Shown here: positions 25,670 through 51,809 of the stretch, in pieces
Layout of the letters: every line of letters begins with the position of its first letter
Numbering within the stretch: position 1 is the stretch's first letter
Origin: Armatimonadota bacterium
GTDB taxonomy: Bacteria > Sysuimicrobiota > Sysuimicrobiia > Sysuimicrobiales > Sysuimicrobiaceae
Length of the DNA stretch: 64,000 nucleotides
Reading direction: 5' to 3'
NCBI GenBank assembly: GCA_031432545.1
Contig: JAVKGX010000003.1
Coordinates: 134,012-198,011, forward strand
Notes under the pieces: generated by a model
The model's input: only the letters and a program-made list of their open reading frames with translations
Databases searched by the model: none
What the model was told of the DNA's origin: nothing
Made by a program: the position numbers and the translations under genes

Positions 25670-25754
25670 GCCCGGATGGCGGAATTGGCAGACGCGCACG
25701 TTTGAGGGGCGTGTGGGGAAACCCGTGGGAGTTCGAATCTCCCTCCGGGCACCA
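25670..25754 (+). tRNA. tRNA-Leu (anticodon GAG), CCA encoded
   Basis: The 85-base sequence folds as a class II tRNA with a long variable arm. The acceptor stem is GCCCGGA/TCCGGGC with discriminator A and an encoded CCA at 25752-25754. The anticodon stem is CACGT/GCGTG with loop TTGAGGG, giving anticodon GAG, which reads CUC and CUU. The T loop GTTCGAATC is canonical. It closes the gap-pgk-tpiA-secG block, the usual place for tRNA-Leu in related genomes. Confidence 0.96.
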
Positions 25755-46195: not shown

Positions 46196-47377
46196 GTGCG
46201 ACCGCTCGACGACCTGTTCGTAGTCGACCTCACGCGCGCGCTCGCGGGCCCGTACTGCACCATGATGCTGGCGGACCTCGGTGCCCGCGTTGTCAAGATC
46301 GAGACCCCGGACGGTGGGGACGACACACGCGGATGGGGCCCGCCGTTCCTCGAGGGGGAGAGCGCCTACTTCATGAGCGTGAACCGCAACAAGGAGTCGG
46401 TGACGCTCAACCTGAAGCACCCGCGCGCGATCGAAGTCCTCCACCGCCTGCTCGAGCGCGCTGATGTCCTCGTCGAGAACTTCCGCCCGGGCGTGATGGA
46501 ACGCTTCGGGTTGGCCTACGCGCAGCTGCGCGAACGCTACCCGCGCCTGGTGTACTGTTCGATCTCCGGCTTCGGCCAGGACGGTCCCTACCGCGAGCGG
46601 CCGGCCTACGACCTGATCCTGCAGGGCATGGGCGGGTTGATGGGGATCACCGGCGAGGAGGATGGGCCGCCGGTGAAAGTGGGCGTGGCGGTCGCCGACA
46701 TCTGCGCGGGCATGTTCGCCGCCTACGGCATCCTCGCCGCTTTGCGCGTGCGCGAGCGTACCGGCCGCGGCCAGTGGCTGGACGTCGCCATGCTGGACGG
46801 CCAGATCGCGTGGCTCACCTACGCGGCCGCCAACTACTTCGCGACCGGCCAGGACCCCAAGCGCCTGGGATCCGCGCATCCCAACCTGGCACCCTACCAG
46901 GCGTTCCGCACGGCCGACGGCTACCTGAACGTGGCGGTCGGCAGCGAGGCGATCTGGCGGCGGTTCTGCGAGGTCGTCGCTCCCGAACTCGCCGATGACG
47001 AGCGCTTTCGCACCAACCCGGATCGCGTGCGCAACCGCGACGTCCTCATCCCCGTGCTCGAAGCGCACTTCATGCGTCGGACGACCGCGCAGTGGGCACG
47101 GACGCTGGACGACGCCGGCGTACCGAACGGCCCGATCTACACGATCCGCGAGGTGTTTGCCGACCCGCAGACGCTGCACCGCCAGATGAAGGTGACCATC
47201 TCTCATCCCACGGCGGGAGAGATCAGCGTGACCGGTGTCCCGCTGAAGTTTTCCGACACCCCCGGCGACGTCCGCGCGGCTCCCCCGACCCTGGGTCAGC
47301 ACACCGCCGCGGTCCTGGAAGAGCTCGGCTACTCCGCGCAGGACATCGCGCGCCTGCGAGGCGAAGGCGCCGTCTGA
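46196..47377 (+). CDS. Class III CoA-transferase (CaiB/BaiF family)
   Basis: A 393-residue family III CoA-transferase. The N terminus reads [12 protein letters not shown], with [10 protein letters not shown] close behind. The catalytic aspartate is probably Asp168 in [10 protein letters not shown]. It likely activates a carboxylic acid by moving CoA from a donor thioester. The GTG start at 46196 is preceded by AAAGGAGG 12 bases upstream, a slightly long spacing. Pairing with the cyclase-family hydrolase suggests a short catabolic route in which the hydrolysis product is turned into a CoA ester. Confidence 0.88.
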
Positions 47378-47394
47378 GACGGCTGCCCTCACTT

Positions 47395-47865
47395 CGCTGC
47401 TGGAGCCGCTCCCACACCAGATCACCGCGGTGTACGAGGCCATGCTCCCACGTCAGCCCCTGAGGTTCCTCCTGGCGGACGACGCCGGCGCGGGAAAGAC
47501 GATCATGGCCGGGCTGCTCATCAAAGAGGTCCTGGTGCGTGGGGACGTCCGCCGCTGCCTGGTGGTGTGCCCCGGGAGCCTGGTGGAGCAGTGGCAGGAC
47601 GAGCTCCAGCAGCGTTTCCAGCTCCCCTTTGAGATCACCACCAACGACAAGCTGGAAACGGCGCGGACCGGCAACTGGTTCCTGGAAAACCACCTCGTGA
47701 TCGCGCGGCTTGGACAAGTCCGCCCGCGACGAGGCCGTGCAGGCGAAGCTCGCAGCCCCCGAGTGCCGGTGGGACATGGTCGTGGTGGACGAGGCCCATA
47801 AGATGTCCGCCACGTTCTTCGGTGAGGAGGTCAGGTACACGAAGCGATACAGGCTCGGCCAGCTC
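47395..47865 (+). pseudogene. N-terminal fragment of a SNF2-type defence helicase
   Basis: Homology begins just after the CoA-transferase stop with [12 protein letters not shown], then the Walker A region [20 protein letters not shown], motif Ia [11 protein letters not shown], and, after a one-base insertion near 47709, the D-E-A-H box in [13 protein letters not shown]. It breaks off after R-Y-R-L-G-Q-L at 47865, before the expected T-A-T-P-H motif. Homologues are about 900-1000-residue SNF2 helicases of defence islands. Not functional as it stands. Confidence 0.75.
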
Positions 47866-48172
47866 TGGGACCCCGAGCAGGACCGCCGGTTTACGGTCTG
47901 GGAGGCCACCCACCACTTGCTGCGCGTGTACTGGCACAAAAAGCCGGGGGCCAGGCTACGGCAGGCCTCTTGCGGAAGCTGGGCTCCCGCGGGGACGTGG
48001 CCCGCGAGCTCGCGTACCGGCTGTACAGCGTCTGCGAGAGGCGCCGCTGGTCCCGGGAGGCCCAGGCCTACAACGCCCTGGTCCTCGGCTGGCCGGAACT
48101 CGCCCGGCTGGCCCGGGAGCGCGTGGTCGTTACCGGCCCGTTGTTTGGGGGCGGGAGACCTGATGGACTGAT
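47866..48172 (+). pseudogene. C-terminal fragment of a DUF1156 adenine-specific DNA methylase
   Basis: Directly joined to the helicase fragment, the sequence W-D-P-E-Q-D-R-R-F-T-V-W-E-A-T-H-H-L-L-R matches the late part of DUF1156 (COG1743) DNA methylases. A frameshift around 47940-47960 (near CACAAAAAGCCGGGGG) moves the homology to another frame, where L-R-K-L-G-S-R-G-D-V-A-R-E-L-A-Y-R-L-Y and A-Y-N-A-L-V-L-G-W-P-E-L follow. The catalytic domain is missing. The junction at 47865/47866 shows a deletion that fused two formerly separate genes. Family assignment is from memory of the conserved C-terminal pattern. Confidence 0.65.
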
Positions 48173-48231
48173 GAGGGAAGGTCGTTGCGTGGGATGTTCA
48201 GGGTGGCTCGAAGGAGGAAAGGAGCGTAGCC

Positions 48232-48438
48232 ATGAGACAGGTCGTCTTGTATCCCGGCGAGGACGGCTACTGGGTGGCAGAGTGTCCGAGCCTTCCGGGT
48301 TGTGTGAGCCAGGGGAGGACAAGGGAAGAGGCAATTGCCAACGTTCGAGAAGCGATCCAGGCCTACGTTGGGGCGCTCGAGGATGACGGGCTGCCCGTCC
48401 CACCGGAGCGGTTCGAAGCCGTCGTGGTAGTGGTGTGA
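48232..48438 (+). CDS. hicB: HicB-family antitoxin
   Basis: A 68-residue protein of the HicB/UPF0150 family with the pattern E-D-G-Y-W-V-A-E-C-P-S-L-P-G-C-V-S-Q-G and E-A-I-A-N-V-R-E-A-I. This partial RNase-H-like fold blocks HicA. No C-terminal DNA-binding domain is present, so it is the short form. ATG 48232 follows AAGGAGGAAAGGAG. The stop overlaps the hicA start as GTGA, ensuring paired translation. Confidence 0.9.
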   Translation: MRQVVLYPGEDGYWVAECPSLPGCVSQGRTREEAIANVREAIQAYVGALEDDGLPVPPERFEAVVVVV

Positions 48439-48656
48439 GCAAGCTCCCGCGTGTTTCCGGGCGTGACTGCGTCCGGGCCCTGGAGCGAGCCGGCTTCTAC
48501 CGCAGGCGGCATACAGGCAGTCATATCGTCATGCGGAGGGACGATCCGTTCGCGCAGGTAGTGGTGCCGGATCACGACGAACTCGACCGCGGTACCTTGC
48601 GGGCGATCTTACGGCACGCGGGGCTCAGTGTGGAAGAGCTCCTGCGGCTTCTTTGA
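48435..48656 (+). CDS. hicA: HicA-family mRNA interferase toxin
   Basis: A 73-residue double-stranded-RNA-binding-fold toxin (YcfA/HicA). The catalytic histidine is His30 in the motif T-G-S-H-I-V-M, and the C terminus has the family pattern D-R-G-T-L-R-A-I-L-R-H-A-G-L. It cleaves mRNA when freed from HicB. The antitoxin-first order hicB-hicA is less usual than hicA-hicB but known. Both genes look intact while the surrounding defence genes are broken, so the pair may now persist as an addiction module. Confidence 0.9.
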   Translation: MSKLPRVSGRDCVRALERAGFYRRRHTGSHIVMRRDDPFAQVVVPDHDELDRGTLRAILRHAGLSVEELLRLL

Positions 48657-48668
48657 AGGGGACCGTGA

Positions 48669-49124
48669 CGACGGGGGGCCAGGTCGCTACCGGGGGATGC
48701 GGGCGGAGAGCAGGTGTCGCTGCCGGATGCCGACCCTCCAGGGCTGCTGGTGAAGCCCGAGGTCGCACGCGGGCGGCTCGATGCCGAGCAGCGGCGTGAG
48801 GGTCAGGACGCCTAGACCGCGCCCGCCCCCGCCGGCCCGACCGGCGTTCAGCCTACGACAACCGCCGCGCCACCACCTGTCACTGCGCTTCCGCGTCGAT
48901 TCCACGGAAGCGTGAGTCTCGACCCCCTCCGCGCCGGCGCTGACGCTGGCAAGATCGCCCAAGAGGTAGTTGCGCATCTCGCCGGCCTGCCGGGAGCCCA
49001 GCTTCGGGTAACCCTGGAAATCGAGGCGACCGTGCCCGCAGGTGTGCCCGAACACGTCGTGCGCACGGTCACCGAGAACAGCCGCACGCTGAGGTTCTCC
49101 ACCAGCGGCTTCGAGAGCGAGTGA
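48669..49124 (+). pseudogene. C-terminal remnant of a DUF499 (COG1483) ATPase
   Basis: One reading frame carries V-S-L-P-D-A-D-P-P-G-L-L-V-K-P-E-V-A, is stopped by TAG at 48813-48815, then continues through a Pro/Thr-rich linker into R-F-H-G-S-V-S-L-D-P and E-V-V-A-H-L-A-G-L-P-G-A and ends R-T-V-T-E-N-S-R-T-L-R-F. This is the conserved tail of DUF499 AAA-type ATPases that accompany DUF1156 methylases and SNF2 helicases in defence islands. The N-terminal ATPase part is absent. One nonsense codon and the large truncation mark it as dead. Confidence 0.65.
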
Positions 49125-49240
49125 AGCGAGTGAGTCGAGGGAAGGGCACGCAACTGCTCTTCACGGTGTCAGCGGTGTCGTGTCGGGTGCTTCTGAGGGC
49201 TGCGGTCGGGACTCCCGGCCGCGGTCGGGGGCCGAGCCGA

Positions 49241-50794
49241 CTAGGCGCCGAGCGGGATCGGGACGCCGGTTTGGGGCAGCACGACGTCAGTGCCCCGGAA
49301 GAGGTTGAGGAAGTCCGCCGGTCGCGCGGTGTGCACCGGGATGACACGACGCGGCCCGATCTCCTCGATGAGGTCGCGCAGTTCCGGTCCGCTGATGTGG
49401 CCCGAGGCGTGGTAGGGCGACGGTAAGTCGGTCAGGCCGACCGGCGTCAGACCGAAGCGCACAAGCCAGTTGCGCAGCCGCTGCATCTCGAACTGCTGCT
49501 CCTCGTCGTGGGGTTCGCTGGCCGAGTAGATCCAGATCCCTCCCACGGGGTCGATGTCGATCAGTTCCGTGATGTCGAAGAACGACATACACAGGAGGTA
49601 GTCTCCCGGGTGAGCGTTGACGTGCGCTGCGGTGACGTGGTCGGGATAGCGGTGGCGCACGAACTTCACCCAGGTCTGCGGCTTCAGCAGGGCGCGGCGG
49701 TAAATGGTGAGCGCAGGTTCGGTGACCGGTGTGGGGATCGCGGGATCGACGACGTGCATCGCGGCGAGCATGTAGGCGTCTTTTTCCGTGACGGCCAGTC
49801 GTCGGCCTGTGCGGCGCGCGATCTCCAGGAAGATCAGCAGCCGCTCGACGTTGCGCGGGCCGAAGTCCGCCACGACGAACTCGCCATGGGCGTCCTGCAC
49901 CGTGCGAAGGCACGCCTCCATCACTTCTTCCTCAGTTGGGCCCGGGCCGCGGTCGACGTTGGTGCCCTCGCACACCAGCGCGACCGGATCGAGGGCGCGA
50001 GCTTCCCGCACGAAGGCATCGGTGAGTGCACGGTCGCGGCCGTGGCGGCGCAGGTCACCGGTGTAGACGACCCATCCGGAGGAGGTCTCGACCGCGACGG
50101 CCGCCGAGCCGTGGATGGAGTGGTCGACGGGCAAGAAGCGCACCCGCAGGCCGGCGATGCGGTCGGCGACGCGCAGGGTCTGGGAGGGGAAGTACCGTCC
50201 GCGCGGCGCGGAGGGAGGTAGATTCCAAAATCGCTCCGGGTCGGCGGGCACCTCGTCGGTCAGTAGGTACGGCCGCCGCTGGAACGGGAAGTCCCGCGCC
50301 GGTAAGGCCCCCAGCGTCCCCTCGTCCGTGGCCTGCTTGGGGATCGCATAGCAAACCTCCCCTTCGAACTGGTGGGCGCCGCAGTCCTGGATCGCCTTGC
50401 ACAGGTAGGCCGTCATCGCCGTGCAGACGATGGGGACGAACGGGTCCAAGAACGAGATGTACCCGCAGTGGTCCAGGTGGGCGTGCGACAGCAGCACCGC
50501 GTCTGCGCGGCACTCGCGGAAGTGGGAGAAGCGGCCCGCCCGGTCCCAGACTCGGCCGTCGGGGTCTTCCATGTCGGCGCGGTAGATGCCGCGCAGCGGC
50601 GGCAGCAGCCCCATCTGGACCAAATCGAGCAAACCCGTGCGAGAGCGCGGGGCGAGGAACTCTTCGAAGTAGAGGTTGCGCGCGTGGAAGGACGCCCCGA
50701 AGTCCAGCCACAGCGAGGCGTCGCCGTCCTCCAGGAGGATCTTGTTGCCGCCGATGGTGTCGGTGCCGTCGTAGACGGTGATGGTGGCCGGCAA
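49241..50794 (-). CDS. Metallo-beta-lactamase/beta-CASP hydrolase, RNase J-like
   Basis: A 517-residue protein. The MBL motif H-A-H-L-D-H is at 104-109, with further metal-site segments D-H-S-I-H-G-S and Y-T-G-D-L. A beta-CASP insert follows (G-P-R-N-V-E-R-L-L-I-F-L) and the C-terminal RMMBL-type segment is S-G-H-I-S-G-P-E-L then V-I-P-V-H-T-A-R-P. This layout is that of RNase J-type or CPSF-like nucleases, but the N terminus and inserts differ from true RNase J and no C-terminal oligomerisation domain is seen. TTG 50794 has GGAG seven bases upstream; the longer open frame upstream shows no homology. Role in RNA processing is likely, not proven. Confidence 0.75.
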   Translation of the reverse strand: MPATITVYDGTDTIGGNKILLEDGDASLWLDFGASFHARNLYFEEFLAPRSRTGLLDLVQMGLLPPLRGIYRADMEDPDGRVWDRAGRFSHFRECRADAVLLSHAHLDHCGYISFLDPFVPIVCTAMTAYLCKAIQDCGAHQFEGEVCYAIPKQATDEGTLGALPARDFPFQRRPYLLTDEVPADPERFWNLPPSAPRGRYFPSQTLRVADRIAGLRVRFLPVDHSIHGSAAVAVETSSGWVVYTGDLRRHGRDRALTDAFVREARALDPVALVCEGTNVDRGPGPTEEEVMEACLRTVQDAHGEFVVADFGPRNVERLLIFLEIARRTGRRLAVTEKDAYMLAAMHVVDPAIPTPVTEPALTIYRRALLKPQTWVKFVRHRYPDHVTAAHVNAHPGDYLLCMSFFDITELIDIDPVGGIWIYSASEPHDEEQQFEMQRLRNWLVRFGLTPVGLTDLPSPYHASGHISGPELRDLIEEIGPRRVIPVHTARPADFLNLFRGTDVVLPQTGVPIPLGA

Positions 50795-50910
50795 GGCAAG
50801 CTCCAGACCCGACCGTGAAGATCTGGGTTCGGCGGGCGGGCTGGCGCACCTGCCGCTGTCTGAAACATCCTCCCGGCAGTACCGACCCTCGGAGGCCGGG
50901 CAGGCTCGAG

Positions 50911-51809
50911 TCAATCCGGAGCCGGTAGGGCGGTGGCCCTTTCGGCTGCGACCTGGGTCCACGCCACGGCGAGCACGATCAGCACCCCGCCGGCGACCTG
51001 CCGGACGTTCAGCCACTCCTCCAGCACCGCGTAGGCCACGAACGCGGCGACAACCGGCTCCAACGTCGCTGTCAGCCCTGCGCGGCTGGGCGAGACGAAG
51101 CGCAGCCCATACAAGAACAGCTCGAACGGCAGCACAGTCGCCAGCACGGCCAGGTGGGCGAACAGCAACCACTGCGAGGGTGTGTATGGTTGCAGCCACG
51201 CTGTGTGCGGCGGCACGCCGAGGCTCCAAACGACTGCGCCGGACAGCAGCGCCAAGACCAGAGTCCCCCACTGGTCGGCGCGCGCCACCCGTCGCCGCGC
51301 GAGCAGCGTGTAGGTCGCGAACAAAGCGGCCGAGGCTAGACCCCACGCGATGCCCGCCGGCGTGGCCACCAGCCCTACGGGACCGACGACCAGCAGGTAT
51401 GAGCCGGTGACCGCGAGTGCGACCGCGCCGGTGCGCGCGAACGTCAAAGGGGTTCGCGATCCACCAAGCGCGCCCACAGCACCAGCAGGATCGGCGCCAG
51501 CTACTGCAGGAAGATCGCCGTCGCCACGTTGGTGAGGTTGATCGCGGCGTAGTAGGCGAACTGGGTGAACGCGAGCACCAAGCCCAGGACGAAGATCGGC
51601 CCGCGGCTGGCCCAGGCCTGGCGCAGCGCATGCCGGCGGAACGCCAGGAGGTAGGCCAGCCCGACGACCGCGGCGCCCGTCAGACGGATCTCGATGAGGA
51701 CATGCGGGGGGATCTGCTCGTTGAACAGGGCCTTGGCGACCACACCGGAGACCCCCCACAGCGACGCCGCCGCGATGACGGCGAGGTATCTTCGGGTTTG
51801 GTCCTGCAT
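50911..51809 (-). pseudogene. EamA/DMT-family transporter, interrupted
   Basis: The N-terminal half (51809-51504) encodes the first EamA repeat, beginning R-R-Y-L-A-V-I-A-A-A-S-L-W-G-V-S-G and ending F-Y-Y-A-type helix sequence up to T-A-I-F-L-Q, then a TAG at 51503-51501 where the family has Tyr. The same frame continues with L-A-P-I-L-L-V-L-W-A-R-L-V-D-R-E-P before a frameshift around 51445-51458 (AAAGGGG run). The second repeat then reads L-T-F-A-R-T-G-A-V-A-L-A-V-T-G and runs normally to 50911. Together they would make a ten-helix drug/metabolite transporter of about 295 residues. Two lesions in 60 bases suggest a real pseudogene, unless both are sequencing errors. Confidence 0.75.

Follow-up and report, generated by a model that had tools for sequence, protein, structure and literature searches.

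Probable remains of a complete Hma (Type-1 BREX-related) operon around an open hicBA pair in an Armatimonadota bacterium

The locus and its flanks

The window, a stretch of 64,000 nucleotides from contig JAVKGX010000003.1 of an Armatimonadota bacterium, carries pieces of three genes homologous to hmaA, hmaB and hmaC of the Hma defence system, together with a hicBA pair and an RNase J-like gene, between a CoA-transferase gene and a transporter gene. The features are listed below by position in the window, with L numbers designating the loci used for comparison.

46196 to 47377, plus strand: intact CoA-transferase family III gene, left flank (Pfam CoA_transf_3, E 4e-142; syntenic in relatives)
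47382 to 47711, plus strand: hmaA remnant, residues 96-205, with Walker A, in the first reading frame (tblastn, 90% amino-acid identity to L101 HmaA; PDLC00659)
47712 to 47865, plus strand: hmaA remnant, residues 206-256, with the DEAH box, put into the second frame by a 1-nt insertion at about 47711 (PADLOC HMMs, DNA alignments, tblastn)
47865 to 47866, no strand: putative hmaA::hmaB deletion junction, in frame (hmaA alignments end at 47862-47865, hmaB begins at 47865)
47866 to 48157, plus strand: C-terminal remnant of hmaB, in which 1 nt is deleted at about 47937-47949 (PDLC00660; blastn, 75.7% to L103, and also to L104; tblastn, 69% amino-acid identity to L104 residues 914-975)
48229 to 48438, plus strand: hicB-like antitoxin gene, open, 48229-48231 being the codon that precedes the ATG at 48232 (Pfam HicB_lk_antitox, E 1.6e-8)
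48435 to 48656, plus strand: hicA toxin gene, 73 aa, open, with the GSH motif, overlapping hicB (Pfam HicA_toxin, E 1.4e-19)
48660 to 49124, plus strand: hmaC (DUF499 ATPase) C-terminal remnant, residues about 960-1120, with a frameshift at about 48705 and a TAG at 48813 (tblastn, E 2e-35 to L104 HmaC; PDLC00662; blastn to L104)
49241 to 50911, minus strand: RNase J-like MBL/beta-CASP gene (TIGR00649, E 9e-15, below its cut-off)
50911 to 51790, minus strand: EamA-type transporter gene, right flank, frameshifted at about 51435-51450 (comparison with relatives)

In four genomes of the same family (L121-L124) the CoA-transferase and EamA genes are convergent neighbours, at most tens of bases apart and with no gene between them. 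At that site the window holds 47378-50910 (about 3.5 kb), which comprises the hma remnants, hicBA and the RNase J-like gene. The base composition of this stretch is unremarkable, and no integrase, tRNA or convincing flanking direct repeat was found at it, the window's only tRNA lying at 25670. The RNase J-like gene lies inside the part that relatives lack here and is unlinked to hma in the loci examined; its candidacy as hma cargo, unsupported by those loci, was rejected.

Remnants of the three core genes

The tblastn queries were intact proteins (HmaA of L101, HmaB and HmaC of L104). Positions 47382-47865 encode residues 96-256 of the SNF2-type helicase HmaA, including the Walker A motif and the DEAH box, and the last 100 or so residues of the HmaB (DUF1156) methylase are encoded from about 47866. 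With the PADLOC HMMs, the HmaA profile PDLC00659 matches 47430-47798 (E 7.3e-46, positions 113-209), while in the ORF at 47710-48168 an HmaA match (E 4.3e-16, 206-271) is followed by one to the HmaB profile PDLC00660 (E 4.1e-6, 858-895), and the HmaB profile also matches 47970-48383 (E 8e-12, positions 908-955). Pfam alone detected the SNF2/ResIII start and left the methylase tail undetected. Three-frame translation places Walker A (AGAGKT) in the first frame, up to about 47711, and the DEAH box (VVVDEAHKM) in the second, which runs unbroken into RLGQLWDPEQDRRFTVWEATHHLLRVYW; a further frame change falls near 47940 in the hmaB piece. These results bear out an earlier note on this DNA, which had described a SNF2 helicase start with Walker A and DEAH box joined in frame at 47865 to the tail of a DUF1156 methylase, with one frameshift on each side (here about 47711 in hmaA and 47937-47949 in hmaB).

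The DNA alignments to hmaA stop at 47862-47865 (82.6% identity for L101, 81.1% for L102), the blastn alignment to hmaB of L103 begins at 47865 (75.7% identity), and the reading frame is uninterrupted through this position. Because the hmaA alignments end and the hmaB alignment starts at one point, the junction is real at the level of sequence and its position is known to within a few nucleotides. The nearest relatives, which at just 76-83% identity cannot settle the question of microhomology, suggest 0-1 nt at 47865: hmaA of L101 and hmaB of L103 have no more than 1 nt (C) in common, and a longer shared CTCTGGG is possible with L102 if an extra small gap is allowed. At the other end of the piece, the hmaA-like sequence starts about 15 bases or less from the CoA-transferase stop at 47377, with the first 95 codons missing, and the left breakpoint lies just 5' of the remnant, between 47378 and 47391.

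The hmaC remnant begins directly behind the hicA stop, a few bases past 48656. By tblastn, HmaC residues 974-1120 lie at 48693-49115, with the in-frame stop at 48813, and a weaker piece extends from about 48660 in another frame. In a genome-wide profile search PDLC00662 matched the place corresponding to 48795-49115 (E 2e-20), the sole HmaC match in the genome. No second copy of hmaA, hmaB or hmaC was found in the genome, and the presence of another Hma system elsewhere in it was rejected.

The earlier note had also attributed the locus to a single deletion of most of two genes, within limits of 47395-48172. One deletion can explain the junction at 47865 and with it the hmaA-hmaB fusion, and to that extent the proposal stands; as a full account it is ruled out by the hmaC remnant beside the hicA stop and by the missing hmaA start. 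In addition to what was lost at the junction, the first 95 codons of hmaA and about the first 960 codons of hmaC are gone, and at least three breakpoints are required: one where the hmaA start was lost, one at the hmaA-hmaB fusion and one where most of hmaC was removed. The limits likewise have to be widened, since hmaA-like sequence is present from about 47382-47391 and the object runs to about 49124. The model of one large deletion joining two defence genes, with no other event, leaves the hmaC tail at 48660-49124 and the intervening hicBA unexplained and is thus very unlikely.

Several 1-nt indels are clustered here and the flanking EamA gene is frameshifted too, so that individual frameshifts could be assembly errors. 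An origin of the whole structure in a chimeric join or indel errors is nevertheless extremely unlikely: indel errors are unable to remove kilobases from three genes, the surrounding contig is 198 kb long, the flanks show conserved synteny, the remnants of all three genes are collinear, and between 45 and 63 kb of the window most of the other genes compared align in one frame.

Intact and decayed Hma operons

The Hma system was originally described in PMC8565338 and is treated as Type-1 BREX-related in PMC12839542. Among the Hma operons fetched, which come from many phyla, the usual arrangement is hmaA-hmaB-hmaC, all on one strand (intact examples are L020, L022, L024, L146-L148 and L152-L154), and a few are rearranged (L036, L149, L157). 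In many of the fetched operons, variable cargo genes are carried between hmaA and hmaB or between hmaB and hmaC (the A-B and B-C gaps). By the look of their sequences, some of these are Schlafen-type, AAA/OLD-type, sacsin-like or DUF3800 genes; Pfam identified a nucleotidyltransferase/HEPN pair in L026 (6407-7504, A-B gap), another in L103 (1105-1868, B-C gap), a genome from the family to which the window belongs, and a Gp49/RelE-like protein in L151 (B-C gap); and plasmid records have four-helix-bundle, XisHI and AAA genes in these gaps. Auxiliary effectors, HEPN-MNT among them, are described at Type-1 BREX-related systems (PMC12839542).

The three remnants in the window lie on one strand and are collinear with the intact operons, and HmaA, HmaB and HmaC are each represented by a fragment that matches its profile (PDLC00659, PDLC00660, PDLC00662). 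Compared with the PADLOC Hma system (PMC8565338), the pieces are homologous and alike in order and strand, whereas the window keeps only about 14% of HmaA, 10% of HmaB and 14% of HmaC. None of the core genes retains an intact ORF: each is reduced to a fraction by deletion of most of its length and bears at least one frameshift (about 47711, 47940 and 48705), and hmaC has the TAG at 48813 as well. Since intact operons show the same succession of hmaA, hmaB, cargo and hmaC and often hold variable genes in their gaps, 47382-49124 is very probably what is left of a single complete operon of the Hma (Type-1 BREX-related) system, comprising hmaA, hmaB (an N6-methylase gene), hicBA cargo and hmaC. 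Against this reading, the closest intact copy found has 83% DNA identity, so that the ancestral operon is not directly seen. The tripartite core is that of the Type-1 DUF499-centred BREX-related (BR) system, a later name (PMC12839542), in the majority of which the DUF499 ATPase has an N-terminal HEPN (Swt1) domain. HmaC of L104, a relative of the same order, has a Swt1-type HEPN domain (HEPN_Swt1, E 9e-40), whereas the HEPN end of hmaC is deleted in the window, and the Type-1 BR subtype is for that reason predicted from relatives.

With no helicase motor past motif II, no methylase catalytic part and no ATPase, the Hma system is, as judged from its sequence, dead. It is scarcely credible that the locus is a functional miniature whose short HmaA-HmaB fusion continues to be produced and to serve, for instance, as a regulator or decoy. 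The junction does preserve the frame, and in L161 an HmaA-HmaB fusion and a mini-HmaC are both open; in the window, however, every piece has a frameshift or a stop, the hmaA start is missing and neither a motor nor a methylase domain is left. The locus is a case of ordinary gene decay and a degraded member of an already known system.

For the decay of this operon, the most likely mechanism is illegitimate recombination: once selection had ceased, at least two deletions would have arisen inside the operon, and a third event would have affected its left edge. One deletion, several kb long (about 5.4 kb for a compact ancestor), would have joined hmaA codon 256 or so to hmaB codon 890 or so; a separate one, reaching from the hicA stop to the surviving tail of hmaC, would have taken hmaC codons 1 to about 960; and the hmaA start would have disappeared as the stretch became attached to the end of the CoA-transferase gene. 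We infer both the order of events and the joining mechanism. The first hmaA piece has a dN of 0.054 and a dS of 0.95 against L101, and the intact copies of L101 and L102 have a dN of 0.083 and a dS of 1.42 against each other. As the dN/dS of the remnant is not raised, most of the divergence would have built up under selection, and the decay looks recent relative to divergence, a rough statement of age because dS is close to saturation.

The hicBA pair and collapsed operons elsewhere

Between what remains of hmaB and of hmaC lies the hicBA pair (48229-48656). Its HicA and HicB domains are adjacent and both frames are open, as in a HicBA toxin-antitoxin module; the pair looks intact and may still be a working one. 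A short hicB followed by an overlapping hicA is also the arrangement of the HicBA modules in PMC10865869, where hicA genes are often located in defence islands; the pair in the window differs in its location, precisely between hmaB and hmaC in an operon that has decayed, and that paper makes no mention of Hma, DUF1156 or BREX.

Since the A-B and B-C gaps of other Hma operons hold variable cargo, hicBA appears to occupy a known cargo slot. Neither the best hicA loci of 386 genomes nor the fetched hma loci included a relative with hicBA in the hmaB-hmaC gap, and the pair could therefore post-date the decay. The nearest hicA homologues (66-70% at the amino-acid level) are in distant genomes, with no hma within 1.5 kb.

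The notable point of the locus is a toxin-antitoxin pair that outlasts the surrounding defence system, and the pattern is one by which a large BREX-related operon erodes, with core genes lost by separate deletions while the toxin-antitoxin pair in the gap stays open. A tentative explanation, which we consider on the whole unlikely, is that toxin-antitoxin pairs in Hma gaps are addiction cargo: hicBA would have been original to the operon, deletions that kept it would have been favoured, and it would have outlived the defence system on both sides, having had a role in sparing its own neighbourhood. If true, this would give a testable reason for small toxin-antitoxin pairs inside defence operons. 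If it is wrong, the locus is one more pseudogene locus and mainly an annotation warning, because such pieces are easily named helicase or hypothetical proteins.

Collapsed Hma operons resembling that of the window occur in at least two other genomes, found with the HmaA start as query; loci that keep this piece are thus over-represented and no rate can be derived. In a Nitrospirae locus (L018:8860-9520) HmaA residues 65-245 are directly joined to HmaC at about 968-1009, with breakpoints near those of the window. In L161 (4263-9348, minus strand; G090:C2) HmaA residues 1-147 are fused in frame to HmaB in a single long open ORF, and the mini-HmaC (220 aa) consists of a Swt1 HEPN domain and a C-terminal tail, the ATPase core being gone; such an arrangement may be a reduced form that still functions. 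In a plasmid of Thermus oshimai, hmaB is unannotated between hmaA and hmaC, and an NYN-domain gene and an IS4 transposase are present there. In the HmaB variants of L023, L158, L159 and L161, residues 457 and 470 or so (L104 numbering) are separated by a large insertion.
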